The notes: generated by a model from the letters alone, not told the origin. DNA of 40,220 nucleotides from a virus (IMGVR_UViG_3300047168_000262:1-40220); one strand, 5' to 3'. Numbered from the stretch's first letter, positions 1,591-39,286 are shown. Numbers and translations are program-made.

Positions 1591-1598
1591 TGGTCGCT
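1591..1598 (-). promoter_or_regulatory. Intergenic octamer, variant copy (AGCGACCA)
   Basis: Seven of eight bases match GGCGACCA. It overlaps the TAG stop of the 1597-2268 gene and precedes the 1551 start, the same placement as the exact copies. Confidence 0.3.
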
Positions 1599-2268
1599 AA
1601 TTCACCGTAACGCCGGGCGGCGGGCTGACTTCCTTTTGCTGGTCGGCCGCCACGCTCTTGATCGCCTGCTCCGGTGTCATTCCACCTGTCTTCAGGCCGC
1701 TGATAAAAGTCAGGATGCGCGCGAGGGTTTCCTTTTGAGCGGTGAGCCGGATTTTGTTCTTCTCGCTGGCCTCGGTCTTTGCGGCGTCGGGGCGGCTAAG
1801 GATTTCCAAGACGCGATTTGCCTGAAACAGGTCGCCGTTGGCGATGAGCTCCATCGTGTAATATGCTTCCAGACGGCCTTTCGACATGATCGTCGGGATC
1901 ATGGCCAAAGTCGCAGCCTGAAAAGCTTCGAAGCGCGTTTGCTGAACGGATTTTTCGGTTCGGTGCAGTCCTTCGCGCACCTGAGCGCTCATCTGGGCGA
2001 ACGCTGCTTGGCAAGTATCGACCATCGAGTGGTCCATAGGGGGCGGAATCCGCTCGGCGCGCAGCAGCGTGATCTCTTTCAGCAAGCCCTGGATGAGCTG
2101 CTCGCCGGGCTGCATTTGGACCCAGCCGGCCTGAACCAAACGCTGGATCTGGTCGATCTGCGGGGCAATGATGGCATAGAATTCCCGCAGTTCTTTGAGT
2201 TCCTGTTCGGGGGTTTTCTTGGGCGGAAGAGGTGGCGCGGCGGTTTCGGCGGTTTTTTGGTCAAGCAT
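1597..2268 (-). CDS. Hypothetical phage protein, proline-rich N-terminus and helical body
   Basis: A 223-residue soluble protein with a Pro/Lys-rich start (PPLPPKKTPEQE), long predicted helices through the middle and a short Pro-rich tail. No catalytic motif or membrane segment is visible and no family is recognised. A GAGGAA ribosome site sits just before the start. It follows the DUF4406-like gene by 15 bases in the same operon. The helical, Gln- and Glu-rich composition suggests a protein-binding or oligomeric role, but this is only inference. Confidence 0.65.
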   Translation of the reverse strand: MLDQKTAETAAPPLPPKKTPEQELKELREFYAIIAPQIDQIQRLVQAGWVQMQPGEQLIQGLLKEITLLRAERIPPPMDHSMVDTCQAAFAQMSAQVREGLHRTEKSVQQTRFEAFQAATLAMIPTIMSKGRLEAYYTMELIANGDLFQANRVLEILSRPDAAKTEASEKNKIRLTAQKETLARILTFISGLKTGGMTPEQAIKSVAADQQKEVSPPPGVTVN

Positions 2269-2283
2269 GGGATTCCTCGGGGT

Positions 2284-2634
2284 TTAGAGAACGATCAATT
2301 CCAGGCCCAACGCGACGGCCGCTGCGCGCTCGGCGTTGGCGCCCTTGCTCTTTTCCCAACCTGGCAGAAGCGCGACAGCATCGGCGTGGCGGCAAATGAA
2401 TTCGAGGTCTTCTGCTAGCGCGACACGAAGGTCAAAGCCGTGCTGCTGAGCTGCAATCGTTTCATCGCCGGTCGCGTTACCCTTCGAAATATCCGTGCCG
2501 TGACGCTCGTTATCCCGCTCGGCCGGGTTGAAGACGAAATGGCCTTTGGCGCGAAGTTCCGCGGCAGCTGCGTTGAAGGCTGGGAAATTGAATTCGCGAA
2601 TAGATCGCATCGGCCCCGCGATGTAAATTTTCAT
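2284..2634 (-). CDS. DUF4406 / nucleoside 2-deoxyribosyltransferase-like protein
   Basis: A 116-residue Rossmann-like protein starting MKIYIAGPM, the typical opening of the DUF4406 and nucleoside 2-deoxyribosyltransferase-like group. FPAFNAAAAELRAKGH, the FNPAERD segment and DAVALLPGWEKSKGA (E near residue 94 with following GA-x-AE) also fit. These proteins are predicted to act on nucleotides or nucleosides; the exact substrate is unknown. It overlaps the upstream diphosphohydrolase-like gene by ATGA, which supports a shared role in nucleotide metabolism during infection. Confidence 0.78.
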   Translation of the reverse strand: MKIYIAGPMRSIREFNFPAFNAAAAELRAKGHFVFNPAERDNERHGTDISKGNATGDETIAAQQHGFDLRVALAEDLEFICRHADAVALLPGWEKSKGANAERAAAVALGLELIVL

Positions 2635-3086
2635 GGTGCATCCTGGATTGTGTAATGTTTGGGATTGCGGTCGCCATACTCCCGCGTGAGACGCCCAACC
2701 TGGAGCGCGAGCTTCTTCATCAGATGGCGCGAGCCACCCGGATAATTGCGGTCGTCGACCAGCTTTCCGGCTTCACGAGAGTCCACAAGGATTGCGAGGC
2801 TAGCGAGCGCGGCGCCGATGTTGTCGACGCCGTCCTCGTCGTCGTCATAGCCTTCGATATAATCCTGGATGTGGCGTAGCGCAGCGTTTGCGTAGACCGT
2901 GGCGCGCGCGCCATCATGCCGCCAGTTATTGCGGCCATATTTGAGCGCCCCGAAGAAAAGACTCATCGCGCCGAGGGCGATCGCGGTCACCGGGAACATT
3001 CCCAGCGGGATCTTCGTCATTGTCGCAAGCGCATCCTTGGGATTCGTCGGCTTGCTCGCCACATCGATCGGTGTCAGCTTTTTCAT
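2631..3086 (-). CDS. dATP/dGTP diphosphohydrolase-like protein (DUF5664 / MazG-like)
   Basis: A 151-residue all-helical protein with the signature NPKDALAT-mTKIPL, GA-x-KYG-x-NWR, YANAALRHI, the acidic run YDDDEDG, and a late DSREAGKLVDDR. This order matches the phage dATP/dGTP diphosphohydrolase N-terminal family, a relative of MazG-type nucleotide pyrophosphohydrolases. The acidic residues would bind the catalytic metals. It likely acts on the dNTP pool. The start lacks a strong ribosome site, and a CACAT-N4-GTGTG dyad lies just upstream. Substrate specificity cannot be read from sequence. Confidence 0.78.
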   Translation of the reverse strand: MKKLTPIDVASKPTNPKDALATMTKIPLGMFPVTAIALGAMSLFFGALKYGRNNWRHDGARATVYANAALRHIQDYIEGYDDDEDGVDNIGAALASLAILVDSREAGKLVDDRNYPGGSRHLMKKLALQVGRLTREYGDRNPKHYTIQDAP

Positions 3087-3103
3087 GGTCTACCACTGCA
3101 AAG

Positions 3104-3117
3104 CACATTTCCGTGTG
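3104..3117. promoter_or_regulatory. CACAT-N4-RTGTG dyad, copy 1
   Basis: CACATTTCCGTGTG lies in the 47-base gap before the diphosphohydrolase-like gene. It shares arms and spacing with the copies at 28437, 28576 and 37380. Confidence 0.4.
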
Positions 3118-3133
3118 TTTCGCAATCAAAAGG

Positions 3134-4494: not shown

Positions 4495-4499
4495 GTCGG

Positions 4500-5012
4500 T
4501 TATTCCTGCGGCTCGGATGGGAGAGGAATTGGGATCGGAGCCTCAATCTCCACGGCCGGCGTCGGAGCAGCAGGGACGGTAGCGGCGGCCGGCTCCTCAT
4601 GGCGGCGGGTGATGTAGAATCGTTGGGCGCCGATCTGTTTTGTGAAAGTGACGCCTTCCGCTTTGGCCCATTCAGGCTCGGGAATGGTCTCGGCATAGTA
4701 GCTGTCAGCCCCGGCGGTGATGTCGGGCAGCACGCCGGCAACCGCCATTTTCGCGAGGAGAAGTGCCTGCTGGTACACCGGATCATTGACCGGCGTGTCT
4801 AGCATCCGGGTATTGTCTGGCCCAGGCAGCCAGCAGTCGTATTGATCTTTCGCAAGGCAGACGCTTAGGATATCGTCACCCCACCAACAGGGGTTCTTGG
4901 CCCGGTTCACGACGGTATTGGCCACCGCCTGCATGCCGTTATAGCCCTGGTCGCTGGCCTCCCCAAAAACAGTCAGAGCCAGCGCCCGAACGGGATCGGT
5001 GATTTCAGTCAT
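4500..5012 (-). CDS. Endolysin, SleB-type cell wall hydrolase
   Basis: A 170-residue protein with a Hydrolase_2/SleB-type domain over residues ~8-135: VFGEAS with the likely catalytic glutamate E18, MQAVANTVVNRA, a cysteine-containing VCLAKDQYDCW, and a Y-rich SYYAETI segment. SleB-type enzymes cleave peptidoglycan glycan strands. No signal peptide is visible, so release would rely on the adjacent holin. The last 35 residues are Pro/Ala/Glu-rich and probably disordered. The start overlaps the holin gene by 8 bases with an AAGG site. Confidence 0.87.
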   Translation of the reverse strand: MTEITDPVRALALTVFGEASDQGYNGMQAVANTVVNRAKNPCWWGDDILSVCLAKDQYDCWLPGPDNTRMLDTPVNDPVYQQALLLAKMAVAGVLPDITAGADSYYAETIPEPEWAKAEGVTFTKQIGAQRFYITRRHEEPAAATVPAAPTPAVEIEAPIPIPLPSEPQE

Positions 5013-5376
5013 CTTTTCGGCCTTTGGTAAGAAGTGCGTTTTTTAGCCAACTGAGGTCTTCCCGGATGGGCAGCATGAGGTCCGAAAAAACGCCTTTCAA
5101 CCGATCGATGTTCTCGGTCATCTCCTGGCGCGTGGGCCGCGTGCTGGCGATTTCGATCTGGAAGGCGATATTTTGCTGGGTCAACGTCCCCAGGGCAGCC
5201 GTGGTTTCGGTGCGCATTTTTTCCATTTCCGCTCTGATTTGATCAAGGCCGTCGATAGCGTCTGTCCTGTTGGTGACCACCGCCTGGTAGATAAAATAAC
5301 AACAGATCAAGGCAATCACGGCGATCCCGACAGGGCCAAGCTGCGTCAGAAAGTTCGCCTCTAGAATCCCATCCAT
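5005..5376 (-). CDS. Holin-like protein, single membrane segment plus coiled coil
   Basis: A 123-residue protein with one membrane segment at residues ~12-33 (VGIAVIALICCYFIYQAVV) followed by a long charged coiled-coil-prone region and a basic tail. Position directly before the endolysin, with 8-base overlap, makes a holin or lysis regulator the best call. The topology is a single span, not the classical two- or three-span lambda type. A GGCGACCA octamer lies upstream. No spanin gene was recognised next to it. Confidence 0.65.
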   Translation of the reverse strand: MDGILEANFLTQLGPVGIAVIALICCYFIYQAVVTNRTDAIDGLDQIRAEMEKMRTETTAALGTLTQQNIAFQIEIASTRPTRQEMTENIDRLKGVFSDLMLPIREDLSWLKNALLTKGRKDD

Positions 5377-5419
5377 TGCGTCGCATCCACGTAAGTTCGC
5401 TCCCGCGCTTTACGCTTCC

Positions 5420-5427
5420 TGGTCGCC
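5420..5427 (-). promoter_or_regulatory. Intergenic octamer GGCGACCA
   Basis: Exact copy in the gap before the holin-like gene, inside a small hairpin (CCTGG-CGA-CCAGG on the - strand). Confidence 0.45.
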
Positions 5428-5434
5428 AGGGCAA

Positions 5435-11350: not shown

Positions 11351-12096
11351 TCAGGACGGCGGAGCCAGTGCGTCACCAGCTTGATCCACTGGCCGAGCGG
11401 CTTACGAATCGAGAGCGTGTCGCCGAGGTGATGCAGGATGAAGCCGTTGCCGACATACACGCCCCCGTGGTTCGGGACCGGCGAACGGACGCGCATCAGG
11501 CAGACGTCGCCGGGTTTCGGATCGCGAAGCCCTTCGTTGCGGCCGATATCGACGAACCCGGCCTGGCCGAACCCGGTCAGGTACAGGTTGTCTCCGCCGT
11601 TCGCGCCGGCCCACCAGGCGTCGTCGCGCGGAAATTCAGGCAGAACGATCTGGCGCTCCACGCGATACCAATCCCGGATCAGTGCGTAGCAGTCGCCTTT
11701 GCCGTCGGTGCCGGACGGCCCGTGGCGGAATTGCCGGCCTTCCAGTTTCGGAACGTCGAGGGAATCGCCCCAGAAAAACGGCCGCGAGACGCGAGGGCCA
11801 TCCGTGACAACAAGCCCCCAGGGAATGTTCATCGCGATCTGCTGGCGCATGTCGTGCTTCGAAGGGCCCATCCGCCCGTTGGTATGGCTGTGGACCACGG
11901 CCAGGAGACGGCCTTCGGCGGAGAGGATGTTGCAGGCCCGCGAGCAATCGAAGGCCAGCACCGGATCGCCGGCCATGTTTTCGAGTGGCAGAAACCCTTC
12001 CGGGGTGATGGCGCCGCACGCCTCTCGGGGGAATTGCTCTTTGGCGTATTCCTGGATCTGCACCATCGCCTGCGGCGACACGTTGAGCGTCGCCAT
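11347..12096 (-). CDS. Tail assembly protein K: JAB/MPN peptidase fused to NlpC/P60
   Basis: A 249-residue protein with two peptidase domains, as in lambda gpK. The N-terminal JAB/MPN+ domain has the full metal motif: E25 and H69-x-H71-x7-S79-x2-D82 (HSHTNGRMGPSKHD). The C-terminal NlpC/P60 domain has the likely nucleophile C136 in GDCYALIRDWYR and H210 in NHGGVYVGN. Such proteins act in tail-tip assembly and may cut peptidoglycan stem peptides at entry. The start at 12096 overlaps the L-like stop by one base (TGATG); a longer upstream frame is rejected. It overlaps the I-J gene by ATGA. Confidence 0.9.
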   Translation of the reverse strand: MATLNVSPQAMVQIQEYAKEQFPREACGAITPEGFLPLENMAGDPVLAFDCSRACNILSAEGRLLAVVHSHTNGRMGPSKHDMRQQIAMNIPWGLVVTDGPRVSRPFFWGDSLDVPKLEGRQFRHGPSGTDGKGDCYALIRDWYRVERQIVLPEFPRDDAWWAGANGGDNLYLTGFGQAGFVDIGRNEGLRDPKPGDVCLMRVRSPVPNHGGVYVGNGFILHHLGDTLSIRKPLGQWIKLVTHWLRRPE

Positions 12097-12842: not shown

Positions 12843-12846
12843 GCTC

Positions 12847-12864
12847 GGTCCTTTGGACAGGACC
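12847..12864 (-). promoter_or_regulatory. Leader hairpin covering the ribosome site of the L-like gene
   Basis: GGTCCT and AGGACC pair around a six-base loop. On the - strand the 3' arm contains the AAAGGA ribosome site of the L-like gene, so folding could hide it. Confidence 0.4.
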
Positions 12865-12875
12865 GTGCAAAGCGC

Positions 12876-12883
12876 TGGTCGCC
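12876..12883 (-). promoter_or_regulatory. Intergenic octamer GGCGACCA
   Basis: Exact copy upstream of the L-like gene, flanked by AGCGC and GCGCT arms that could form a hairpin with the octamer in the loop. Confidence 0.45.
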
Positions 12884-12902
12884 TGCGCTGGGGTTGAGCT
12901 TA

Positions 12903-12928: not shown

Positions 12929-12970
12929 GAAATGGGTTTTGGGCAAATGTGCCGGAAAACGGGGGACCAG

Positions 12971-13234: not shown

Positions 13235-13238
13235 CATG

Positions 13239-16829: not shown

Positions 16830-16844
16830 CCTGATTGCATCAGG
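16830..16844 (-). promoter_or_regulatory. Leader hairpin at the ribosome site of the 16414-16821 gene
   Basis: CCTGAT and ATCAGG pair around three bases. On the - strand the 3' arm runs into the AGGAG ribosome site, so folding could limit translation. Confidence 0.35.
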
Positions 16845-16857
16845 GGCTCTGCCGTCT

Positions 16858-16865
16858 TGGTCGCC
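16858..16865 (-). promoter_or_regulatory. Intergenic octamer GGCGACCA
   Basis: Exact copy a few bases after the stop of the gpM-like gene and 37 bases before the start of the 135-residue structural gene. Confidence 0.45.
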
Positions 16866-16868
16866 GCC

Positions 16869-17225
16869 TCAATCGCCGGGCGGGAAGACCTGGACGATGT
16901 TGATTTGCAGCGAATAATACGTGGCCTGGCGCGTCGGCGTCCAAGACTGCGGCCACCAATATTTCGTCACGCCGTCAATCGGGAGCGCATAGGAAAATGG
17001 ATTTCCCGACGCCACGCAGCCGGCGAGGAAGCTGTCGATCGCCTGGTATTGCGCATAAGTCAGCGGCTCAAAGGTGAGCTGAATGTTGCTCGCCTCGGCA
17101 TTAAGGCCATCGAGCGCCGACTGGATGTAATTGTCGCCGAACTGAGCATCGATGCGCCGCGCCTGCAGCGAATCCTCCAGTGGCTCCATCGGGTTGAAGG
17201 GTGGAACGAAGGCCGAATAGCTCAT
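16869..17225 (-). CDS. Minor tail protein M-like
   Basis: A 118-residue protein resembling lambda gpM, which links the tape measure region to the tail tip. Signature parts: FNPMEPLED, QFGDNYIQSALDGLNA, LTFEPLTYAQYQAIDSFLAG, YALPIDGVTKYW, and TRQATYYSLQINI. Position directly after the tape measure (three bases apart) matches lambda order H-M. A paralogous domain lies at 13818-14717. Confidence 0.72.
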   Translation of the reverse strand: MSYSAFVPPFNPMEPLEDSLQARRIDAQFGDNYIQSALDGLNAEASNIQLTFEPLTYAQYQAIDSFLAGCVASGNPFSYALPIDGVTKYWWPQSWTPTRQATYYSLQINIVQVFPPGD

Positions 17226-22691: not shown

Positions 22692-22733
22692 GGTGCGGTC
22701 CTTCAGGAGATGGGGCCCTAGAAGCCGACGGCG

Positions 22734-22741
22734 TGGTCGCC
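22734..22741 (-). promoter_or_regulatory. Intergenic octamer GGCGACCA
   Basis: Exact copy in the 164-base leader of the chaperone gene. It lies in a bulged hairpin with CGAC-GGCG and CGCC-GTCG arms. Confidence 0.45.
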
Positions 22742-22758
22742 CGGTCGACACGCGAAGA

Positions 22759-24103: not shown

Positions 24104-24157
24104 CGAGGGTTCAACCTTTTGCTCGCGTTAAAAACGTGGCAGAGGGTTCGCAGCACT

Positions 24158-24165
24158 TGGTCGCC
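24158..24165 (-). promoter_or_regulatory. Intergenic octamer GGCGACCA
   Basis: Exact copy in the leader of the tail tube gene, between GCAGC and GCTGC arms that could pair. Confidence 0.45.
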
Positions 24166-24170
24166 GCTGC

Positions 24171-24590
24171 TTAAGGTCCGAACTCCGAGGTCGACCAGTA
24201 AATGTTGACTGGCACGCGCAGCCAGCTACCATCGCTGATCGCCGGTGAAACAACACTGCTTTGATCGATGATCAGCGGCGCTTGGCCGGCGAGCGCAATC
24301 GTCAACCCGCGCGGGAACAGCGCGTGGATTTTATCGGCTTCGCCCAACGCAGCCGCTTTTCCAGCGCCGGCGGGCCAGACGACCGTGATCGTGTGCGATC
24401 CGCGCTCGACAAAAACCGTTTGGGGACCTGGTCCGGTATTGGTCCGCGTGTAGCCCGAAAGCTGCATGTCGAGATAGGGCTGGCCGGTCTGCGGATCAAA
24501 CGCGACGTCTTCCCATGCAACCTGCATCGTATTGCCGGTCAGCGCGTTTTGGATGAACGTGTCCATCGCATCGGAAATGACCGAGAGCAT
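24171..24590 (-). CDS. Tail terminator-like protein
   Basis: A 139-residue protein with helix (MLSVISDAMDTFIQNALTG), then a beta-sheet body (YLDMQLSGYTRTNTGPG, SHTITVVWPAG, IHALFPRGLTIAL) and WLRVPVNIYW at the end. This layout matches phage tail terminators (lambda gpU class and DUF4128 type), which cap the tube before head joining. Its start overlaps the previous stop by one base (TGATG). Neighbours, a gp10-like protein upstream and the tube protein downstream, agree. Confidence 0.75.
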   Translation of the reverse strand: MLSVISDAMDTFIQNALTGNTMQVAWEDVAFDPQTGQPYLDMQLSGYTRTNTGPGPQTVFVERGSHTITVVWPAGAGKAAALGEADKIHALFPRGLTIALAGQAPLIIDQSSVVSPAISDGSWLRVPVNIYWSTSEFGP

Positions 24591-28433: not shown

Positions 28434-28436
28434 GAT

Positions 28437-28450
28437 CACATTCCTGTGTG
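28437..28450. promoter_or_regulatory. CACAT-N4-RTGTG dyad, copy 2
   Basis: CACATTCCTGTGTG just upstream of the capsid start. On the - strand the loop bases AGGA are the ribosome site, so a hairpin would display the site in its loop. Confidence 0.4.
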
Positions 28451-28452
28451 TT

Positions 28453-28497
28453 GAGCAGCCGCGCCCCAGCGGCTTAAACGGGGCATTCCTGCTGCTC
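28453..28497 (-). promoter_or_regulatory. Two-part hairpin in the capsid leader
   Basis: An outer 7-bp stem (GAGCAGC with GCTGCTC) encloses an inner 5-bp stem (GCCCC with GGGGC). It ends about 20 bases before the capsid start on the transcript. A possible RNA control or stability element. Confidence 0.45.
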
Positions 28498-28536
28498 AGA
28501 CAGGGGTGACGAGCTTGCCCGCGAAGGGCTGACACG

Positions 28537-28565
28537 AAGACGGGGCAACCTCGTGGTCGCCCCGT
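28537..28565 (-). promoter_or_regulatory. Hairpin with the GGCGACCA octamer, capsid leader
   Basis: GACGGGGC and GCCCCGTC form an 8-bp stem, extendable by ACC/GGT after one mismatch. The octamer (28554-28561) spans the stem and loop. No T tract follows on the - strand. The rest of the 28434-28608 interval holds no gene. Confidence 0.5.
28554..28561 (-). promoter_or_regulatory. Intergenic octamer GGCGACCA
   Basis: Exact copy about 120 bases upstream of the capsid start, inside the hairpin at 28537-28565. Confidence 0.45.
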
Positions 28566-28575
28566 CAAGAAATTT

Positions 28576-28589
28576 CACATCGAAATGTG
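28576..28589. promoter_or_regulatory. CACAT-N4-RTGTG dyad, copy 3
   Basis: CACATCGAAATGTG, perfect arms, 20 bases after the scaffold stop and 14 bases before the octamer in transcription order. Confidence 0.4.
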
Positions 28590-28608
28590 CTGCGAGACCA
28601 AAAAATTT

Positions 28609-29886
28609 TCAGCCCTTGTAGGGTTTGCCCGCCGTCTGGTGCTGGCGTTTCATCAGCCGCATCGCGCGGTCTTGCGGCGAGAGTTTCGACAGATCCTCTT
28701 CCGGCTGCTGATTGATCTTGGCGAGATCGTTCTCTTCGCCCTTTTCGATGGCAGCGGTGATGAGCGGCGCCTTGGGCGCTTCGGGCTGGCTCAGCAGGGC
28801 CTTGGACAGCGCCTCGTATTCCGCGACCTGGCCGCGCAGCGCTGCATTCTCCTCGGCGACCTTCGTCAGCGCACCGACATCGATGCCGCGATCGGAGAGC
28901 AGCTTTTTCAGTGCTTCGTCGGTGATGTCGAGTTTGGCCAGGTCGGTTGCGCCCGGGGCGCTTTTACCGACGGGGTTGTCATCGTCGGGGTTCGGGCCGC
29001 CGGCTGCCGCGCCGGAGGTGGGCGGGTTGTCGTTGCCGGACGCTGCCGCCGTGGCCGCGGACGGATCGGCCGGCATCGTGCCGTTATCCTCGCCGCTCGG
29101 ATCGGTCGGCTCGTTCGTGCCGTTCACCTGCTGGTTGATGTGATCGACCGTGATCAGGATCAGCGCGGCCAGGCGGGAGACCGTATCGAGCGGATTGCCG
29201 TCGTCCATGCCGATATCGGCGCCCGACCCGTCGTCCGGGGTTTCCTGCGACATGCCCATCATCCCGGCGTCCTTGCGCAGCTCGCCGCCTTCCAGCGCTT
29301 TGCTGAGCACTTCCGGATCGACGCCCGCCTGAGCCATGACGCCGAAGCCGACCTGGGCGAAGAGGTTGTCGATGTCGTTCGGATCGGCCGCGAACTTCGC
29401 CAGTTCCACCGGCAGATGGGTTTTGACCTGGACATCGGTGCCGTCGGCACATTTGACCATAACAACGTGCATGTCGTCATCGCCCTCGTCGCCGGGGACG
29501 CAATGCTCGTTCACCGCCATGTGCAGAATGCCTTGCGCGTGCATCAGAAGGCCGTCGAGCGCGTCGAGCATGTCTTCGGAGGCCGGGTCTTTCGAGCCAT
29601 CGGATTTCCAGGATGGCCCGCCATTGGCGATGTCTTGGATCTTGTCGGCGATCATGGAGACCATGCTGGCGACCGCGCCGACGCAGCCATAGCCCTTGAA
29701 CAGCAGATCCTCGGTCGCCGGAGCGCGCTTGGCGAGCTCACCGTCGACTTCGGCTTTCAGAACGGCCTGGAATTCGCCGAAGGATTTCGCCAGAAGCTCG
29801 TCATGCTGATCGGCCGGCGCTTTGGCGATGGACGCCACACTCTTCCGGAGCGTGTCGACCATCGCTTCGATGGTGTGGTGAGACAT
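28609..29886 (-). CDS. Scaffold-like protein
   Basis: A 425-residue protein. The N-terminal half has helices (MSHHTIEAMVDTLRKSV, ELLAKSFGEFQAVLKAEV), a His/Asp segment (GILHMAVNEHCVPGDEGDDD) and a beta stretch. Residues ~230-320 are Pro/Gly/Asp-rich and disordered. Residues ~325-380 hold a coiled-coil (VAEENAALRGQVAEYEALSK), and the end is basic (RAMRLMKRQHQTAGKPYKG), the usual capsid-binding tail of scaffolds. The start at 29886 has AAAGGAAA ten bases upstream. A longer frame from 30066 overlaps the upstream stop by ATGA, but its first 50 residues are a capsid remnant. Position before the capsid gene fits. Confidence 0.7.
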   Translation of the reverse strand: MSHHTIEAMVDTLRKSVASIAKAPADQHDELLAKSFGEFQAVLKAEVDGELAKRAPATEDLLFKGYGCVGAVASMVSMIADKIQDIANGGPSWKSDGSKDPASEDMLDALDGLLMHAQGILHMAVNEHCVPGDEGDDDMHVVMVKCADGTDVQVKTHLPVELAKFAADPNDIDNLFAQVGFGVMAQAGVDPEVLSKALEGGELRKDAGMMGMSQETPDDGSGADIGMDDGNPLDTVSRLAALILITVDHINQQVNGTNEPTDPSGEDNGTMPADPSAATAAASGNDNPPTSGAAAGGPNPDDDNPVGKSAPGATDLAKLDITDEALKKLLSDRGIDVGALTKVAEENAALRGQVAEYEALSKALLSQPEAPKAPLITAAIEKGEENDLAKINQQPEEDLSKLSPQDRAMRLMKRQHQTAGKPYKG

Positions 29887-29906
29887 CGTCAGATTTCCTT
29901 TGTTCA

Positions 29907-30066
29907 TAGAGCCGCGGGAGAGAAAGCGCTTGCGCCATGCGGCATGACGGTTGCGACGACGCCCAGGGGTGGGGGCCGGGTAGACTTCCTTCGGCACAGG
30001 CTCCAGGTCGTAAGGTTGGAGCCCGCTGGTCGGCGAAGAGGGTTGCGAGAACGTCGATTCACTCAT
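29907..30066 (-). pseudogene. Remnant of a second major capsid N-terminus
   Basis: The peptide read from ATG 30066 contains GLQPYDLEPVPKEVYP, which matches GLTEYDLEPVAKELYP of the capsid gene. Over ~34 codons about half of the residues are identical and the DNA also aligns. After TP the match fades: the next codons read GRRRNR, and another frame keeps TPLGVVATVMPHG before a stop. The remnant is in frame with the scaffold gene, so an N-terminally extended scaffold could be made. Confidence 0.6.
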
Positions 30067-33000
30067 GGGACCGAGGCGTTCTGTTGTTTCGGTCGCCCTG
30101 GCAAAGCAGATTTCACGTCGTTGACAACGCGAGTGCCGGCCGCACTGGCGATTCCGGCCGCGGAACCGATGGCGCCACCCAGCCCTTCGCCGGCAGCCCC
30201 GCCCAGCGCATTACCAATCACGCCGCCGCCGACTTCGCCCGCGGCCGCGCGCTGCTCCTGCATGGGCGACGGTGCGACTTTGGTGCCAAGCACGCGCTGT
30301 ACGGCTTTGGGGTTGTACCCGGAGAAGTGCTGAATCGCGGCGTGCATCAGAAATTCGCCCAGCGCGCCGCCGATCGCGGCGCCGCCAATTTCGCCGGCAA
30401 CAGTGCCGACCGGACCGAGAGCGGAGCCGAGCACCGCGCCGGCGGCTTCGCCGACGCCAGCGCCCGCTACGCGGCCCGCGATGGCTTTGCCGGCGATTTC
30501 ACCGGCAAATGAACCGCCAAAATTGCCTCCGCCCATCGCGAGATTTTCGCCGGCGCTCGTATTGCGCCGATACGAACTGCCGCCGGTTGCCGCCTGGACG
30601 CCACTGTAAAGCGCAGCGCCCAAACCACCCGCCACCAGACCTTTCGCGCCGAGTATGCCGAGCGTCTTTGCGCCGGTTCCGACCGCTCTTATTGCGTTGC
30701 CAGCGCCGCCAGAGACCGCCCCTGTGACAGCGCCCGCTGCAGCTTTTGCGGACTGCACAGGATTCATCACGGCGTTGCGGACTTGCTTGAATCCGATGTC
30801 CGGCGTTTTCAGCGACGGATATTTCTGTGGAACGACGTGGTTGAGGACGTGGTTGGCTAAGCCAGCGCCAGCCAGGTCCGCTGCCGCCGCGACGGAGTCC
30901 TTGACCGGATGATAGGTCGGCGCCGCTTCGCCGCCGCCGCTCTGTGCCTGGTTGGCCGCACCGGAGAACGCCGCCGGCAGCCGTTTGGCCAGCCACTCGA
31001 AATCCTCCAGGTCTTCGCCATCCATGACGAAATCGGCCTTTTGCATCTGCTCGCCCTTCATTTGGCGGCGAACCGAGCGGTTGAGCGCCCGCATCAAATC
31101 CTGGTCATTGAACGTCGTGAGCGCGTGGCCGAAGGCGGCTTTGGTGTGGCGATCAGTGCCGGCCATATCGAGAACGGCGGTTTTGGCCATGGCCACCGCC
31201 TTGTCGTCCGAGACGTTGTGGCTTTCTTTGATGTTCTGCGCGCAAAGCGCGATGAAATCGCCGAGCGTGCTGATGTGGTTGTCGAGGCCAACCTGAGACG
31301 CGATGCTTTGCGCGGCACGGTCCGAGCCGCTGAAAATAGACTCGCTCGGGACGCCGGCGACGTCTTCCGGCATGTCCGGGATATCGACGGGCGCGGTGGC
31401 GTGCTTGACCGGGATTTCCGGTTGGCTGGCCGCGGGCGAGTGAACAGTCTCGCGCACCGCCGTCCCGCCGATCTTGTCGTAGATCGGCGTAAGTTTGTCG
31501 GGCGCGATGTCTTTCGCTTTGCCGATGATCGCCACGGCGCGGCGCAGCGCGTCCTTTTGGCCTTCGTCTCGCGGCGGCATATCGCGCAGCGCGCGCGTGA
31601 TTTCGGCATCGAGTGCTGCCTGGGATTCCTGCGCACCGGCGCCGAAGCCAGCGTTGTCCTTCAGGATGCCGTCGCCTTTCTTCCCGTCGCCCGGCTTGTA
31701 GCCTGTCAGCGCCTGGAACATCTGGGTCGGTTTCAGGATATCGCTCTGCTTTGCGGTCAGCCCGTCGAGCGCGCTGTAGAACGCGCCGGCATTGCTGTGC
31801 GTGGTCGGACTGATGAATTTCTTGCGAAACTCGTTGATGTAGGCGCCGGCCGCGTTGTTACCGCCGGAATCCGCCTGGTCGCGCGCCGGAATGCTGACGC
31901 CGCCGCCGGTGATCGTGGTTTTGGCCATGCTGCCACGGGCGGCGTCCACATCCGTCTTGACCTTTTCGGGCAACCAATCGGCATCCTTGGCCGGCGCGTT
32001 GCCGCGCGAAGGTTGGTTGTTCGTGCGCGCCTGCTGTTTCTGCTCCTCGTGCACGCGCATCACGTCCGCAAGCCTGGCGCCGGGGTTGAGGTCGATCGGA
32101 TCGGGGCGGCCGTCGACATACCGGTGGCCGAACAGGATAATGCGGTCGCCCTTTTTGTTCGGATCGGCGGCATGCACCGCGAAAAGCCCTTCATCCTTCG
32201 TAGGGTGGCGCTGCAATTCGACCTGCAGGTTGGTGGGCGCCTTGGCGTCCTTGTCGCCTGTCAGCAGGCCGTGCGCATAGGATACGGACTTGCCGCCGAA
32301 CTCGTAGAGAGCAGCCGCCGGTGCCGCGACATATGCCAGTTTGATTGGGTCTGGCACCCAGACGCGCTTGCCGTTGATCGTGCGCTCGCGCCCGAACATT
32401 GCTTTGCCGCGGTCCATCGTGCCGCTGGCGATTGCATCGGCATGCGGCCCAACATAGCCCATGACCGCTTTCAGGTGCTTGGCGCTCGGCTCGATCGCAT
32501 AGCGCGAGATCGGGTCATAGCCGTCCTTCGCCGCCTTGGTAATTCCGGCCATCAGCTCGGTCACAACCGCCGGCGGAATGAAACCTCGGTCCTTAGAAGA
32601 AGCTGCTTCTGCCTTGAATTTATTGTATTTTCCGATAAATACGCCCGCTTCCTTGTCGAAGGCTGACTTCATCGCCTCGGTTTTGGCCACCGCGGCGCCG
32701 TGCTCGGTGTCGGCCTTCTTCACCGCCGCTTTGCCGTCACGGATCTGCGCATCAAGGTCGGCGCGGATCGCCTTGTCTTCGGGCGTCCGCGCGCTGGGCA
32801 GTCCTTTGCGGCGGGATTCCAGGGTGGCGAGGCGCCCGGCGTGCTCGTTGAGCGCCTGGGCTTTCAGGTCCTCTTCGTGCTCGGCCTCGTTCAGATTGAC
32901 ATGCGCTTTAAACAACGGGTCGGCTTCTTTGCCGAGGATGTGGCGCAGGCCGGCGGATTTTTTGGCCAGACCCACCCATGTCGCGAGCTGACGCGCGTGG

Positions 33001-35363
33001 TCGTTTTTGAGCTGCGAGAAGTAGTGGGCTTTCGCGGCTGCGACCGCGCGCTCGACCTTCTGCTTGCCCTTTTTCGCTTTGGCTTCGTAGTCGGCAATGG
33101 CAAGTGGGCGCAGCTTCAGCTTAATTTTTTCAAGCGCGCCGGCCATGTCCAATTTGTTTGGAGCCGGGATTTCTTTGCCGTCTACTTCGACCTTCGGGGA
33201 TGCCTCGATGAGACGCTTGTGCTTCGCAATCGCTGCCGCGACGGCTTTGCCCTTGTCTTTCATCTGGGCTTCGACGGCATCACGAGCCTTGACCGCCGCG
33301 TCGTGTTCCGGCGTGCCCTCTTTGTGAAGCTGGATCTCGGCGTCGGCATTGCGCAGCGGCGTGGCCAGCGCGTCCTGCGCTTCTTTTGCGGCTTCGGACT
33401 CGGCCTTGGCGTCATCGATCGCTTTGGTGCGCGCGGCTAGCGCCGTATCAACCTTGGCGTCGACGCCCTCGCGGGCCTCGAAATGGTGGAGAGCCGCTTC
33501 TTTTTCCTTCGGCAGCAGATTGGCGATGGACTTGCCGAACGCTTCGAGGTCCATACCCTCGATGGCGAGGCGCGCGTGGCGAACCGCATTGTCGCCCTTC
33601 AAGGTTTTGCGAAGATCTTTCATCGAGATCAGAGCCGCGTCCTTTTCCGGCGACGGGACCATGAAGTCATCGTTGTGGGCCAGCATCGTCGTCAGCTTGT
33701 CGTTGGCGATCCCCTTGGCCTGGTCTTTGTAGAACAGCGGGCTGTTGTTTTTGTACTTATCGAACTGCGCCTTCGCCGCCACCATGTCCGGATGGCCGTT
33801 GATGAAGTCGTCGAGGTGCTGTTGATAATTTGCGTACAGTCCGGCGGGCCCGTCGGGCGCGCGGTGCGTTGCCTCGTAAGCGCGGCGGATGGAATCGACG
33901 CTGCTATTCGCACCAGCGGCGTTTCCACGGCTGGTCTGTTCGGCGACATGCGCGTCCAGGTGATCCATCGCCAGCCTGAAGGCAGCGCGGTTCGCCTGAC
34001 GGATCTGGAAATATTTCGCGCCGCCGGCTGCCAAGCCGCCGATGCCCGCACCGATCGCCGCGGCCTCAGCAATGCCGTTGCCAACCTCGGCGTCGCCCTT
34101 CGACGTGAAGCGGCCCTTGGAATCGTGGTAAGGGTTCCCTTCCGGCTTATTCAGGGCGTTGCCCACAGCCTGGACGGCCGCCCCGGTTCCGGCGCCGGCA
34201 AGAGACCCGGCAACGCTCGCGGCGGCGCTGGCGCCCACCGTGGCAATCTTGGACGTCAGCTTACCTGCCAGGTCGTCGGTGAAGTCCGCGAGCGGGGAGG
34301 CTTTCTCCAGCGGCTGGTTCTTGCGCAGATCCGCCACGATCGTCTTTGTCAGAGTTTCCAGCTCCGGCATCGCCAGCATTTTCTGCACAGTGCGATAGTG
34401 CGTCTCGTCATAGGCGCGGCCGAGATTTGCCGGGTCCAGAAAACTGCCGTGGATCAGCTTGTAGATCGGGTAAGCCGCCATCCCGGCGACGAACACCTTG
34501 CCAGCCGCGCGGCCGCCCGCGGCGCGACCGTTGATCCGGGCGATGTCCATGGCGACCTTTCCGACCTTGAAGGCGTTTTTTCTGTTGAGGCGCTCGCCAG
34601 GCTTCAGGACGCTCTCGATCGTCGGCGGCGTCTTGGGGCGGCCTTCCATAGTGCTGAGGAACGCCTGGGTCGGGACGCGCGCGAGATCGATCGCACGATT
34701 CGTTACCCAAGAGGCGGAACGGATCGTTGAGGCGGAGGCTTTGTCGGACGCACGGCCAGCGAAGTTTTTGATGCCCTTGGCGTTCATCTTCACGCCGAGC
34801 TTGTCCTCGACGAGCTTTGCCGCGGCTGCGGTCAGATGGAGCGGCACGCCGACTGCCAAGCGGGAGATGATCGCGGGTTTGATCGCGGTCGATTTGACCA
34901 CAAAGCGCCGCGACCAGGATTCGGGGTTGTCGCTTGTCAGCGTGTGGCCGAGGATCGCGCCGTTCGCCCCGGCGATCGCGAGCGTGGCTGCATTCCCATA
35001 GAACTCGCCGCGTTGCTCGGGAATCACGTCGCTGGTGAGCGCGGCATAGCCTGCGCTTCCGGCCTGCGCCTGTTTGTGTTCCTTCTGGGAGGACGGCAGT
35101 GCGCCAACGGCTTCGGCCTTCCCGGCAAACTTGCCGTCGCCGGCGCGCGGGTGCTTCGACGGATCGAAGGCTTTGGCAAGACCATCCAGGTGATCGTCCA
35201 CCTTCCGCAGCGCACGCTCGCCGGGTGCGTCGCCCTTATAGGCCCGCTCGTACAGCTTTTTGAGCTGGTTGAGCGTGACCTTGTCCTGGCAGGACTCGTT
35301 ATGGGCGATCACGCGGTTTCGGAGATCCGCGATCAGGCTGGCGGAGAAAGTCGGGCGGGTCAT
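30063..35363 (-). CDS. Giant internal-virion / ejection protein candidate
   Basis: A 1,766-residue protein between protease and scaffold genes. Residues 66-80 carry AFDPSKHPRAGDGKFAG, a motif also present in the 377-residue neighbour; a second, shorter copy (YHDSKGRFTSK) lies near residue 425. The middle (~670-980) is Ala/Lys/Glu-rich coiled coil. The C-terminal ~250 residues are packed with glycine zippers (GGSFAGEIAGKAIAGRV, GAAIGGALGEFL), able to enter membranes. No catalytic motif is recognised. Size, site and zippers suggest an ejection or core protein, by inference. Start at 35363 overlaps the protease stop (ATGA), in preference to a Met 12 residues earlier. Confidence 0.6.
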   Translation of the reverse strand: MTRPTFSASLIADLRNRVIAHNESCQDKVTLNQLKKLYERAYKGDAPGERALRKVDDHLDGLAKAFDPSKHPRAGDGKFAGKAEAVGALPSSQKEHKQAQAGSAGYAALTSDVIPEQRGEFYGNAATLAIAGANGAILGHTLTSDNPESWSRRFVVKSTAIKPAIISRLAVGVPLHLTAAAAKLVEDKLGVKMNAKGIKNFAGRASDKASASTIRSASWVTNRAIDLARVPTQAFLSTMEGRPKTPPTIESVLKPGERLNRKNAFKVGKVAMDIARINGRAAGGRAAGKVFVAGMAAYPIYKLIHGSFLDPANLGRAYDETHYRTVQKMLAMPELETLTKTIVADLRKNQPLEKASPLADFTDDLAGKLTSKIATVGASAAASVAGSLAGAGTGAAVQAVGNALNKPEGNPYHDSKGRFTSKGDAEVGNGIAEAAAIGAGIGGLAAGGAKYFQIRQANRAAFRLAMDHLDAHVAEQTSRGNAAGANSSVDSIRRAYEATHRAPDGPAGLYANYQQHLDDFINGHPDMVAAKAQFDKYKNNSPLFYKDQAKGIANDKLTTMLAHNDDFMVPSPEKDAALISMKDLRKTLKGDNAVRHARLAIEGMDLEAFGKSIANLLPKEKEAALHHFEAREGVDAKVDTALAARTKAIDDAKAESEAAKEAQDALATPLRNADAEIQLHKEGTPEHDAAVKARDAVEAQMKDKGKAVAAAIAKHKRLIEASPKVEVDGKEIPAPNKLDMAGALEKIKLKLRPLAIADYEAKAKKGKQKVERAVAAAKAHYFSQLKNDHARQLATWVGLAKKSAGLRHILGKEADPLFKAHVNLNEAEHEEDLKAQALNEHAGRLATLESRRKGLPSARTPEDKAIRADLDAQIRDGKAAVKKADTEHGAAVAKTEAMKSAFDKEAGVFIGKYNKFKAEAASSKDRGFIPPAVVTELMAGITKAAKDGYDPISRYAIEPSAKHLKAVMGYVGPHADAIASGTMDRGKAMFGRERTINGKRVWVPDPIKLAYVAAPAAALYEFGGKSVSYAHGLLTGDKDAKAPTNLQVELQRHPTKDEGLFAVHAADPNKKGDRIILFGHRYVDGRPDPIDLNPGARLADVMRVHEEQKQQARTNNQPSRGNAPAKDADWLPEKVKTDVDAARGSMAKTTITGGGVSIPARDQADSGGNNAAGAYINEFRKKFISPTTHSNAGAFYSALDGLTAKQSDILKPTQMFQALTGYKPGDGKKGDGILKDNAGFGAGAQESQAALDAEITRALRDMPPRDEGQKDALRRAVAIIGKAKDIAPDKLTPIYDKIGGTAVRETVHSPAASQPEIPVKHATAPVDIPDMPEDVAGVPSESIFSGSDRAAQSIASQVGLDNHISTLGDFIALCAQNIKESHNVSDDKAVAMAKTAVLDMAGTDRHTKAAFGHALTTFNDQDLMRALNRSVRRQMKGEQMQKADFVMDGEDLEDFEWLAKRLPAAFSGAANQAQSGGGEAAPTYHPVKDSVAAAADLAGAGLANHVLNHVVPQKYPSLKTPDIGFKQVRNAVMNPVQSAKAAAGAVTGAVSGGAGNAIRAVGTGAKTLGILGAKGLVAGGLGAALYSGVQAATGGSSYRRNTSAGENLAMGGGNFGGSFAGEIAGKAIAGRVAGAGVGEAAGAVLGSALGPVGTVAGEIGGAAIGGALGEFLMHAAIQHFSGYNPKAVQRVLGTKVAPSPMQEQRAAAGEVGGGVIGNALGGAAGEGLGGAIGSAAGIASAAGTRVVNDVKSALPGRPKQQNASVP

Positions 35364-36157
35364 TTTTGCTTGGGCAGCGCCTGGCCGCAGGTCGGGCACA
35401 GCCTCGCGGATGCGAACGGACTCTTGATCGCATTATAGACCGATGCCGGCATTTTGCTCGGCATCGCCGAATCTTTTGAGCGATTGCTCGGAAGCATAGA
35501 AGGCGGAATCATAAGAGGTGTAGCCTTAGTCAGCTCACCGAACGTCATCGGCCGCTTCGCCCAGGCATCTGCAAAGGTCGGAACGGTTTCGGGACGGCGC
35601 TTCCACAGCGCGCCAAAGCTTTCCGGCTCTTCCTCGCGGCCGCGCAGCTCGATCTGCTCCACCATACCGTCGGCCTTCAGGAGTTCGGCGAAGCGGGCGC
35701 CGGGCATGCATGGGCTGTCGACCAGGGATAGTTCGGCGACGCGGGGGGTGTAGCGGGTGAGATCGCCATCTTTCCACTTTTTGGCGTAGCCGCCGCCTAC
35801 CGAGAATCCGGTGTAGACGCCGTCAAGGCATTTCCGCCATTCGTTGTCGTCGACGACCTTGGCGCAGACCTCAATCTGCTTGGCCTCATCGTTGAAGGCG
35901 ATCTGGTCGAGACGGCCGACCGCCGTCTTCTGGTGCATGACGCGCAGATTGCCTTTCGACAGGCCGCCGGTCGCGGTCTCAAAAGATTTCGACCACGTCT
36001 CGAACGCCGGCTTGGCGGTAGCATAGTCCATGATCTCTTTGGTCAGGTCGGGCTGCTCGATCGCGGCCACGCCGATCACCATACGGCGCTCGACGTCGAT
36101 TTTCGTCAGCGGGATGATGATCTGTTCGGAAACGGAGGTGCTTGGGAACAAGGACAT
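35360..36157 (-). CDS. Prohead protease (HK97 / XkdF-like)
   Basis: A 265-residue protein with a serine protease core of the phage prohead type: residue H75 in RVMHQKTAVGRL, S119 in TGFSVGGGY, and the AELSLVDSPCMPGA block near 140-154. The first ~25 residues (IIIPLTKIDVERRMVIGVA) start the typical beta-fold. The C-terminal ~90 residues are extra, with a Cys pair (LCPTCGQ) at the end. It should cut scaffold and head proteins during maturation. It is flanked by the giant protein and the 377-residue gene, both plausible substrates. Confidence 0.82.
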   Translation of the reverse strand: MSLFPSTSVSEQIIIPLTKIDVERRMVIGVAAIEQPDLTKEIMDYATAKPAFETWSKSFETATGGLSKGNLRVMHQKTAVGRLDQIAFNDEAKQIEVCAKVVDDNEWRKCLDGVYTGFSVGGGYAKKWKDGDLTRYTPRVAELSLVDSPCMPGARFAELLKADGMVEQIELRGREEEPESFGALWKRRPETVPTFADAWAKRPMTFGELTKATPLMIPPSMLPSNRSKDSAMPSKMPASVYNAIKSPFASARLCPTCGQALPKQK

Positions 36158-36159
36158 GA

Positions 36160-37293
36160 TTATGCTCCCACGGAAGGGGCAGCAATCGCGGCCTTAAGCT
36201 GCTTGGCTTTTGCGGCCGCCATCGCACGCTTTTTGCGCCCGTGCTCATCAACCATACGGCCAGCCGCACCGCCCGCGTGATTACCGACTGTGACACCGAG
36301 AGACGTGCTGGCGAACCTGCTGGCCCCCGCATTGGGATTCGCCTCGTATTCCGTGGCCACACCATGCGCAATGGTATGAGCGCCATGCTGAATCATGCCG
36401 CGGCGAAACAATGCATTAGAACCGGCCCGGATTCCGCGCGCCATACCGCGTGAGAAATGCGGCGTCAGCGCGTAGCCGGCGGCACCCAGCGCCAGAGCAC
36501 CTGCGACGCGCCCGCGCGTTTCCCAAGTTTTCGATGAGAATTTTCCGTCATGCTCGCGCGGGTGCTTTGTCGTGTCGTAGGCTTTCGCCAGGCGTGTCGC
36601 GAGATCGGCCTTCCCCATACCCATATCCGGCGAAGTCACATTCGCCTGCTGGTTCACAGACAGCGCGTTCGAGACCTTGTGCGCCGCTACGGCCTCGCCC
36701 ATCCGGCGCCCGGCATCGGTGCCCAGCGCGAAGGTGTGGCGAGCCGTCATTGCGGCAACGCGATGCGTCGTGTTGGCGTGTCGCCGCGTGGCATCCCGAA
36801 CGCCGGCTTCATACGCGGCAGCCGCAGCATCCGATCCGGCGTGCGCGGCCGGCGCGATCCGCTGGCCTTTCATGGCGCGTAGCCGGGAGATCAGGTCCTT
36901 CTTGACTTTCTTGCCGTCCGTGGGATTGGGCGCATGCTTCGTTTCCGGCTTGGCGTCGTTCGCCGCCTCGCCGGCGCCGGCCGCACGCGGTCCACTGTCG
37001 GGAGCATCAATGCCGTTCGACAAGTCGTTCGGGGTGGGCTGCTGAGCGCTCGGGTCTTCCTGATCGCCCACAGGAATGCGTTTTTCCTTGGCCCATGCGG
37101 CGGCGGCTGCCTTGCGCAGTGGCGTGCCGTTTTCGACCCAATCGGTGGCCAGCAGATACGCGGCGTCGCGCGTACCCTCGTCCTCATACATCTTTTCGAG
37201 GACCTGGAACTGGCTGGCGAGATGACTCGCTTTGATGCGGCCCTCGCCAGTCTCGCTGGCTTTTTCGAGTAGCTGCAAAAACGTCTCGGACAT
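36160..37293 (-). CDS. Head-region protein with KHPR-x2-DGKF motif
   Basis: A 377-residue protein. Helical start (MSETFLQLLEKASETGEGRI), a Pro/Asp-rich linker (~78-130), an Ala/His-rich helical part (~150-215), then residues ~236-255 with AYDTTKHPREHDGKFSSK, and a Gly/Ala-rich end (GRVAGALALGAAGYAL, HAGGAAGRMVDEHGRKK). The motif is shared with the giant protein. No enzyme motif is visible. First gene of the leftward late block here; start with GGAG, after a dyad and an octamer. An internal virion or capsid-assembly role is possible. Confidence 0.6.
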   Translation of the reverse strand: MSETFLQLLEKASETGEGRIKASHLASQFQVLEKMYEDEGTRDAAYLLATDWVENGTPLRKAAAAAWAKEKRIPVGDQEDPSAQQPTPNDLSNGIDAPDSGPRAAGAGEAANDAKPETKHAPNPTDGKKVKKDLISRLRAMKGQRIAPAAHAGSDAAAAAYEAGVRDATRRHANTTHRVAAMTARHTFALGTDAGRRMGEAVAAHKVSNALSVNQQANVTSPDMGMGKADLATRLAKAYDTTKHPREHDGKFSSKTWETRGRVAGALALGAAGYALTPHFSRGMARGIRAGSNALFRRGMIQHGAHTIAHGVATEYEANPNAGASRFASTSLGVTVGNHAGGAAGRMVDEHGRKKRAMAAAKAKQLKAAIAAPSVGA

Positions 37294-37305
37294 TCGGCGC
37301 TCCGT

Positions 37306-37324
37306 TGATCCTTAAGGTGGATCA
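37306..37324. promoter_or_regulatory. Inverted repeat before the first late gene
   Basis: TGATCC and GGATCA are separated by seven bases, 13 bases upstream of the start of the 377-residue gene. Could be an operator or leader hairpin. Confidence 0.3.
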
Positions 37325-37338
37325 GACGTCGGATTTTT

Positions 37339-37346
37339 TGGTCGCC
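37339..37346 (-). promoter_or_regulatory. Intergenic octamer GGCGACCA
   Basis: Exact copy 46 bases upstream of the 377-residue gene, in the divergent region shared with the DUF5131 gene. Confidence 0.45.
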
Positions 37347-37361
37347 GGTGCATTTTGGGGG

Positions 37362-37390
37362 TTTTCAGTTGGTCGAGATCACATTACTAT
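37362..37390 (+). promoter_or_regulatory. Candidate promoter for the DUF5131 gene
   Basis: TTTTCA and TACTAT are 17 bases apart, about 20 bases before the DUF5131 start. The -10 box falls inside the CACAT-N4-ATGTG dyad, so the dyad could be its operator. Confidence 0.35.
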
Positions 37391-37393
37391 GTG
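37380..37393. promoter_or_regulatory. CACAT-N4-RTGTG dyad, copy 4
   Basis: CACATTACTATGTG, perfect arms, in the divergent region between the late block and the DUF5131 gene. Confidence 0.45.
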
Positions 37394-37409
37394 TTTTTTA
37401 GGCGCGAGA

Positions 37410-38192: not shown

Positions 38193-38599
38193 AGAACTCC
38201 TACGACGACATCCGCGCCGCCGCCGGCGAGCCGCTTTGGTGGGATGAGAACGGCGTCCCGCGCTACGCCGAATTCTCAACGGATCACCTGGCCAACATCT
38301 ACGCCCACGAGGCGGCGCTGGCCGAGATCACCTGCCAGGGCTGCGGCAAGCCGTTCCAAGTCGCATTTTCCCGCTCGTCGCTCGATCGCAAAAGAAGCCT
38401 TCGGGAGGAAATCGAGACTAAAGAACTGCATTACGGCGATCCGCCGAACGAAGGCTGCTGCCTGGCCGGCCCGACGATGAACAGCGAACCGCGGCGCGTG
38501 ATCCAATACTGGTGGCGCGCGTTCTTCGGCCACGACCTGCGCTGGCAGCGCGATGAAAGGCTGGAGATCGATATCAAGCCAGATTGGGTGGGCGAGTGA
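38189..38599 (+). CDS. Hypothetical phage protein with Cys-Cys site
   Basis: A 136-residue protein starting with GTG; GGAG lies upstream. Parts: DIRAAAGEPLWWDENGVPRY, a C-x2-C pair (CQGCGKPFQVAF), a GDPPNEGCC segment and W-rich end (WWRAFFGHDLRW). The four cysteines could bind zinc. It overlaps the DUF5131 stop and the next small gene, so it belongs to one transcript. Conserved in phages by general look, function unknown. Confidence 0.65.
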   Translation: MKNSYDDIRAAAGEPLWWDENGVPRYAEFSTDHLANIYAHEAALAEITCQGCGKPFQVAFSRSSLDRKRSLREEIETKELHYGDPPNEGCCLAGPTMNSEPRRVIQYWWRAFFGHDLRWQRDERLEIDIKPDWVGE

Positions 38600-38724
38600 C
38601 CGCGAAGCCCAAGCCCGACGTGCGGCCGCCGGCGATAACGTGGCGCTGCGCGTGCGGCAAGATCAATCTGACGCATCACGAGTTTTGCTCGGCGTGCTCG
38701 CGACATGTGAGGGAGACAAAATGA
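38596..38724 (+). CDS. 42-residue zinc-ribbon-like protein
   Basis: A very small GTG-started gene whose start overlaps the previous stop (GTGA) and whose stop overlaps the next start (ATGA). The protein has a C-x-C and a C-x2-C pair (WRCACGKINLTHHEFCSACS) plus a basic tail; four cysteines and two histidines suggest one zinc site. The double overlap and the cysteine pattern support it. Confidence 0.65.
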   Translation: MTAKPKPDVRPPAITWRCACGKINLTHHEFCSACSRHVRETK

Positions 38725-38924
38725 ACCAACGCGAGTTCCATAACCTTCTGCGGGTAATGATCAGCATCGACCGGGATGAGCTGGTGACGTTTGGTGTGAT
38801 GCAAGCCAACGACACTGACGGATGGCGCGCTTTCAGCGACGGTCCGTACCGCTGGTTCATCAAGGCGCCGGACGCGCAGGCAGATAACCTTTGGCGGCTT
38901 TTGGAAAGCAGGACCACTCGATGA
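38721..38924 (+). CDS. Small hypothetical protein
   Basis: A 67-residue protein (MNQREFHNLLRVMISIDRDE ... FIKAPDAQADNLWRLLESR). GGGAG precedes the start. Helical ends and a central YRWFI-x-APDAQAD-x-LW block. No family. Overlaps its neighbours by ATGA on both sides. Confidence 0.6.
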   Translation: MNQREFHNLLRVMISIDRDELVTFGVMQANDTDGWRAFSDGPYRWFIKAPDAQADNLWRLLESRTTR

Positions 38925-39067
38925 GATATGTTTGTTTCTTGGTTGTTCTTTTCGTCTTTGCGTTCGGCGCGATTAGCCTGACGGCCGCAATGCCGTGGTA
39001 TGAGTTCTTTCCGATAGACGGCTTATTTTGGCTTTCATGGTTTGCTTATGACGGTAGGTGGTTTTGA
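38921..39067 (+). CDS. 48-residue membrane peptide
   Basis: A short gene overlapping the previous stop by ATGA. The product (MRYVCFLVVLFVFAFGAISL then MPWYEFFPIDGLFWLSW) has one clear membrane span at residues ~4-24 and an aromatic tail. It ends the small-gene chain. Function unknown. Confidence 0.55.
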   Translation: MRYVCFLVVLFVFAFGAISLTAAMPWYEFFPIDGLFWLSWFAYDGRWF

Positions 39068-39286
39068 TTATTGTCCGCGTCGAGTTGCTTTCGGCCAACA
39101 TGGGATACACGAAATGACCGCACAATCATTCGGCCGCGGCCGCAAACTTCCGGTATTATGTAGCACCCGCCACCAGACGGCGGCGACCAAAACCATCTAG
39201 GGACACGCCCATGACCGGTCTCAAAGTTTGTAAATTCCCTCAATCTGTAGGTATCTCCCAAAAAGCAATTTTTAGGGAGTTGGATT
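39068..39286. other. Intergenic leader region with an octamer
   Basis: This 219-base gap holds no convincing gene. It contains TATTAT at 39154-39159, a possible -10 box without a good -35, and a GGCGACCA octamer at 39182-39189, 97 bases before the next start. A - strand frame of ~95 codons crosses it but lacks support and overlaps the next gene. Confidence 0.4.
39182..39189 (+). promoter_or_regulatory. Intergenic octamer GGCGACCA, + strand copy
   Basis: The only gap copy on the + strand. It precedes a + strand gene, so orientation still follows the downstream gene. CCGCC and GGCGG arms lie next to it. Confidence 0.45.

Follow-up and report, generated by a model that had tools for sequence, protein, structure and literature searches.

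The octamer GGCGACCA recurs in the intergenic gaps of a siphophage genome, oriented with the gene that follows and embedded in a promoter-shaped footprint that is conserved in related phages. As judged from sequence, its copies probably constitute activator boxes of late promoters, one before each late (structural or lysis) unit. The window, i.e., the whole 40,220-base IMG/VR record, carries J, L, tail tube, capsid, and lysis genes. For an uncultivated phage group, the array would provide a readable code of late-gene control: the box, a rule for the spacing, and a start predicted for each late unit. The class of control is already known (P1 Lpa, Mu C); the box, its position, and a possible GcrA-type activator are new.

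The window contains 11 exact copies of GGCGACCA, compared with a mean of 2.43 and a maximum of 7 in dinucleotide shuffles (0 of 100 reach 11). Eight of the 11 lie in gaps, which total 1,976 of 40,220 nt (4.9% of the window), against a chance expectation of about 0.12, and GGCGACCA ranks first when all 8-mers in the window gaps are counted. Seven gap copies are on the minus strand and one is on the plus strand, each in the orientation of the downstream gene (8/8). A recount thus bears out the coordinates, strands, and fixed orientation given in a preliminary description of this DNA, as well as its view that the array is far from chance. The description mentioned a single further exact copy, at 8489(+), whereas two more are found inside genes, at 20036(-) and 27701(-). 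An additional conserved site at 30090(-) differs by one mismatch (GGCGACCG) and has an ortholog in the relative G002. In the likely host genome, an Acidocella metagenome-assembled genome (MAG), the octamer is not enriched (201 copies in 2.5 Mb versus 265 of the reversed control).

Alignment of the gap copies reveals a 29-bp footprint: a -35-like WWGM, 3 nt, GGCGACCA, 8 nt, and a -10-like nAnnnT. With the first G of the box numbered 0, the element reads W W G M n n n GGCGACCA n8 n A n n n T. An alignment of 20 gap sites first brought out the A at +17 and the T at +21, along with WWGM three bases ahead of the octamer. The two hexamer positions (-7 to -2 and +16 to +21) are separated by exactly 17 bp, the standard sigma70 spacer, which makes the element promoter-shaped. 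The predicted sites in the window are as follows.

1577..1605, minus strand: predicted late promoter with the one-mismatch box AGCGACCA (1591-1598), before gene 1246-1551; it has G at -5, A at +17, and T at +21 (GAATCT), and was left out of the alignment that defined the motif.
5406..5434, minus strand: predicted late promoter with an exact box (5420-5427) and TTGCCC, before gene 5005-5376; the box is orthologous to G002 17780, both 43 nt from the start codon.
12862..12890, minus strand: predicted late promoter with box 12876-12883 and -10 CACGGT, before the minor tail L gene 12096-12842; the box is orthologous to G002 10343, both 33 nt from the start codon.
16844..16872, minus strand: predicted late promoter with an exact box (16858-16865) and TTGAGG, before the structural gene 16414-16821; it has the top motif score in the window.
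22720..22748, minus strand: predicted late promoter with box 22734-22741, before gene 22275-22691 in the position of the tail assembly chaperone; ortholog, G002 3249.
24144..24172, minus strand: predicted late promoter with box 24158-24165, before the tail tube gene 22856-24103; orthologs, G002 1845 and G001 4743.
28540..28568, minus strand: predicted late promoter with box 28554-28561, before the capsid gene 26931-28433, with a conserved leader of about 120 nt; TTTCTTGACGSGGCGACCA is identical across four relatives.
30076..30104, minus strand: predicted late promoter with the one-mismatch box GGCGACCG (30090-30097), before gene 28609-30066; the element overlaps the 3' end of gene 30063-35399, and the orthologous G002 86623 has the same GGCGACCG variant with TTGC upstream.
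37325..37353, minus strand: predicted late promoter with box 37339-37346, before the head gene 36160-37293 in a divergent gap; ortholog, G002 79737.
39175..39203, plus strand: possible promoter, the weakest site, with an exact box (39182-39189), before ORF 39211-39714.

Of 25 sites, 16 have A at +17 and 13 have T at +21, and of 81 offsets tested with a -10 matrix, exactly this one has the highest mean score. Since orthologous sites are not fully independent, counts with one site per ortholog group were added (A at +17 in 11 of 16, binomial p 1.4e-4). The -10 letters were described and first counted on the same sites; the independent tests are the copies inside genes and the phage L060. Among exact copies, those within genes lack the flanking pattern of the gap copies: A at +17 is present in 0 of 10 in-gene versus 16 of 24 gap copies (Fisher p 4e-4), and T at +21 in 1 of 10 versus 14 of 24 (p 0.02). 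L060 (TerL 66%) came to light only once the model was fixed; its four late-gap sites show the A in 4/4 and the T in 3/4. The TerL sites of L060 and G002 have the same variant, GGCGACCT, and the start codon at +29 in both.

The TTG-like letters at -7 to -5 would represent a weak -35 and nAnnnT at +16 to +21 a weak -10; the box would span -28 to -21 relative to the transcription start, which should fall near +28. No start codon lies earlier than +29 among the sites (39182 and G002 52572 at +29, 30090 at +31, G002 86623 at +34, and the rest from +41 onward), as expected if transcription begins near +28. Counting against this, a purine is not enriched at the predicted start. In a consensus sigma70 scan no canonical promoter passes at the sites, and the hexamers are poor. 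We infer that the sites are promoters and that host sigma70 polymerase would be unable to use such hexamers unless a phage activator bound the box; the combination of weak hexamers with a nearly invariant octamer suggests that the octamer is what the activator would bind. The -10 T is missing from several sites and the A from the capsid sites (CCCCGT), which counts against the promoter model, as does an SD-like AGGGA upstream of the predicted start at 39182. This last site has A at +17 and lacks G at -5 and T at +21, and no ortholog was found for it in the relatives; its status as a promoter site is doubtful.

Closely related to the window phage are G002 (95.5 kb), G001 (7.6 kb), and a contig assigned to the Acidocella MAG, with capsid proteins 71-79% identical; the MAG contig indicates that the host probably belongs to Acetobacteraceae. 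G002 encodes an integrase, RecT, DnaB, and a CI-like repressor, which implies that the phage group is temperate. It has 12 exact octamer copies, all on the plus (late) strand, with none on the minus strand (integrase, RecT) and none in early operons; GGCGACCA again ranks near the top of its 8-mers, together with words of ribosome-binding sites. The octamer is kept at orthologous gaps: six G002 copies share gaps with window copies, and the GGCGACCG sites make up a seventh pair of orthologs. Over the seven pairs the octamer is identical at 56 of 56 positions and the flanks at 33-34%, while positions -7 to -4 are 79% identical and +17 and +21 each match in 5 of 7. The head-gene gap is divergent in both phages, which indicates that the element belongs to the start of an operon and not to the end of the upstream gene.

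Farther away, the Brevundimonas phages Polewnik and Strzyga, as well as G425, G427, G095, and G288, have no GGCGACCA array in their gaps, and searches with the L-like and tail tube proteins added no relatives beyond distant contigs and further copies of the G002 phage. G228, a prophage of Acetobacteraceae that is distant though syntenic, has a repeated late-gap element of its own, TTGCG-N14-nCGACCATGmCGGAG (at 18203, 30566, 39110, 47437, and 51559; L045-L047 joined), with a CGACCA core in common with the window octamer; possibly it is another late-promoter box. Two G002 boxes (42934 and 55427), a further point against the promoter model, are each followed at once by a strong intrinsic terminator and by no gene; they might yield very short RNAs or be non-functional.

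A second repeated element is the palindrome CACAY-N4-RTGTG, which occurs 15 times in G002 (0.1 expected; L008-L012, including 27791, 46301, 54193, 79689, and 88147), 5 times in L060 (3568, 8522, 11038, 16678, and 19810), and 4 times in the window (0.15 expected). It is absent from the distant relatives. Most palindromes lie before genes, a number of them close to the CI-like repressor region and others immediately ahead of late boxes. The four in the window, none assigned to a strand, are listed below.

28576..28589, unstranded: palindrome CACATCGAAATGTG, candidate operator for a repressor; the capsid promoter box follows 14 bp downstream.
37380..37393, unstranded: palindrome CACATTACTATGTG, candidate operator for a repressor; the head promoter box follows 33 bp downstream, and G002 has the palindrome at the corresponding position (79689).
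28437..28450, unstranded: palindrome directly before the capsid start codon, reading CACACAGGAATGTG on the mRNA strand with AGGA in the loop.
3104..3117, unstranded: palindrome CACATTTCCGTGTG in the gap 3087-3133.

CACAY-N4-RTGTG is a better candidate than the octamer for a genome-wide repressor operator. The capsid leader itself (28434-28561, minus strand; 120-135 nt) is strongly conserved in four relatives (orthologs L012, L002, and L017), with a stable hairpin and a stem-loop before the start codon in which the CACAY..RTGTG arms enclose the SD sequence.

The preliminary description compared the copies with the stoperators of mycobacteriophage L5, asymmetric 13-mers to which the repressor binds (PMC9283540, PMC6550527). 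In that case, or if the copies were operators overlapping ordinary promoters, a repressor on the octamer would block late transcription in the prophage. The octamer is likewise asymmetric, sits in short gaps, and is oriented with transcription, and G002 is a temperate phage with a copy (42934) about 500 bp from its CI-like repressor gene. However, L5 and cluster A sites are distributed genome-wide, including the early lytic region, and mostly outside promoters, whereas the sites here are promoter-shaped and confined to late genes, with zero octamers on the early strand of G002. The promoter shape with weak hexamers fits activation better than repression, and the immunity region, like other gaps throughout the genome, is marked by the other palindrome. 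What the preliminary description said of non-random, gap-located, oriented, and conserved sites therefore stands, while the assignment to L5-type stoperators finds no support, and repression through the octamer is an unlikely explanation. Slightly less probable still is direct reading of the octamer as an extended -35 by an alternative or phage-encoded sigma factor with no separate activator. The fixed 17-bp geometry and the invariant block beside the -35 letters would suit such a factor, but the G002 proteins that were scanned included neither a sigma factor nor a phage RNA polymerase, and the lack of enrichment in the likely host genome speaks against it as well.

An RNA element in the 5' leaders, acting in processing, stability, translation control, or antitermination, would account for the constant position of the octamer on the mRNA strand, as a rule 20-130 nt ahead of start codons, for the strong conserved hairpin of the capsid leader, and for the two G002 copies that precede terminators. 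Several copies had been described as sitting in hairpins; on folding of 23 sites, however, only the capsid-gene sites reach z < -3, most z values are near 0, and no common structure emerges, nor does an Rfam search give a match. Judged by the alignments, the pattern of conservation fits a promoter and not a stem-loop. An RNA element is thus improbable, and for want of a shared fold RNA processing, raised earlier as an alternative, has no support. The other earlier alternative, a boundary sequence for module exchange by recombination, agrees with the location of the copies between modules; it would not predict an exact octamer with -35 and -10 letters at fixed offsets, the immediate flanks are not conserved between phages, and eight bases are short for homologous exchange. 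It is extremely improbable.

For activation through the box, the proteins common to G002 and L060 were compared, and a candidate activator was found directly after TerL in both (G002 54400-55086 and L060 11150-11920, 49% identical). The candidate has a winged-helix-like segment and a Cys-rich C-terminus patterned like the sigma-interacting domain of GcrA. In GcrA, an N-terminal domain binds DNA, and the C-terminal domain binds sigma2 and promotes open complexes (PMC7403470). The candidate appears similarly arranged, with an N-terminal DNA-binding domain, a linker, and a C-terminal domain resembling the sigma2-interacting one. When a profile of this domain is built with six GcrA homologs taken from related bacterial genomes, the G002 and L060 orthologs come first and second of 1,742 ORFs, with marginal E values (0.012 and 0.052). 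The Pfam GcrA family (PF07750) matches only C-terminal positions 110-154, at 14.8 bits, below the cut-off of 26.9. The structure model has a mean pLDDT of 43 and is reliable in the winged-helix segment only. The candidate differs from GcrA in that the GcrA-type N-terminal DNA-binding domain is absent, with the winged-helix-like segment in its place, and no GANTC occurs in the octamer box. The window is without the terminase region, and hence no activator gene is seen in it and the candidate is known from relatives alone.

In both G002 and L060, a CACAY-N4-RTGTG palindrome lies upstream of the candidate gene. The activator might tentatively be this winged-helix/GcrA-like protein, touching sigma region 2 in the manner of GcrA and held off in the prophage by a repressor at the palindrome. 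Control would then run as a cascade from repressor to activator to late promoters, each binding step of it predicted. Slightly more speculative is the broader suggestion that a temperate phage family of acidophilic Alphaproteobacteria may control its late genes by a rewired GcrA, with the sigma2-interacting domain of this host protein fused to a phage winged helix that reads GGCGACCA within the spacer, in a methylation-independent cascade of repressor, activator, and late promoter. A GcrA-type activator would mean that a co-activator domain of the host cell cycle had been turned into a phage late-gene switch, and would offer a simple system for testing activation through sigma region 2. An OmpR-type winged-helix protein of G002 (51847-52581), the initial candidate, was set aside because L060 has boxes yet no homolog of it. 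A related prophage shares its contig with a gene for a GcrA homolog (L066; G095:C44:143525-144025), located about 7 kb ahead of the portal gene of the prophage. G228 encodes a 422-aa protein (L065; G228:C11:613903-614316) that appears to join winged-helix-like repeats and GcrA domains.

As in the class represented by P1 Lpa and Mu C, several promoter-shaped sites with one common non-sigma box stand before late units. In P1, Lpa reads a 9-bp inverted repeat at 11 late promoters and is encoded next to the packaging (terminase) genes (PMC10695390). The present array is likewise one of scattered, predicted late promoters with a common putative activator site, and in the relatives the candidate is encoded beside TerL; the box differs in being an asymmetric octamer at -28 to -21 with no conserved inverted partner. 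In Mu, several late promoters need one phage activator, the C protein (PMC4461284); activator and site are unrelated to those proposed here as far as known. The MotA box of T4, located 12 ± 1 bp from a strong -10 (PMC2988021), is similarly a short asymmetric phage box (8-10 bp) that takes the place of a good -35 upstream of a sigma70 -10. In contrast, 8 bp separate the octamer from a -10 that is weak, which departs from the MotA spacing, and -35-like letters are retained. By analogy, the sites would most resemble the P1 class in mode of action, with no detailed match to P1, T4 MotA, or L5.

Some other proteins were noted in these genomes. The products of two minus-strand genes, at 45125-45925 in G002 and 5599-6492 in L060, weakly resemble the DNA polymerase III beta clamp and RusA-like families; the G002 proteins that were scanned included no DNA polymerase. 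Among the head genes of the window, the region 30063-35399 (minus strand) encodes a 1,778-aa protein that has no PHROG match and a counterpart of about 40% identity in G002.
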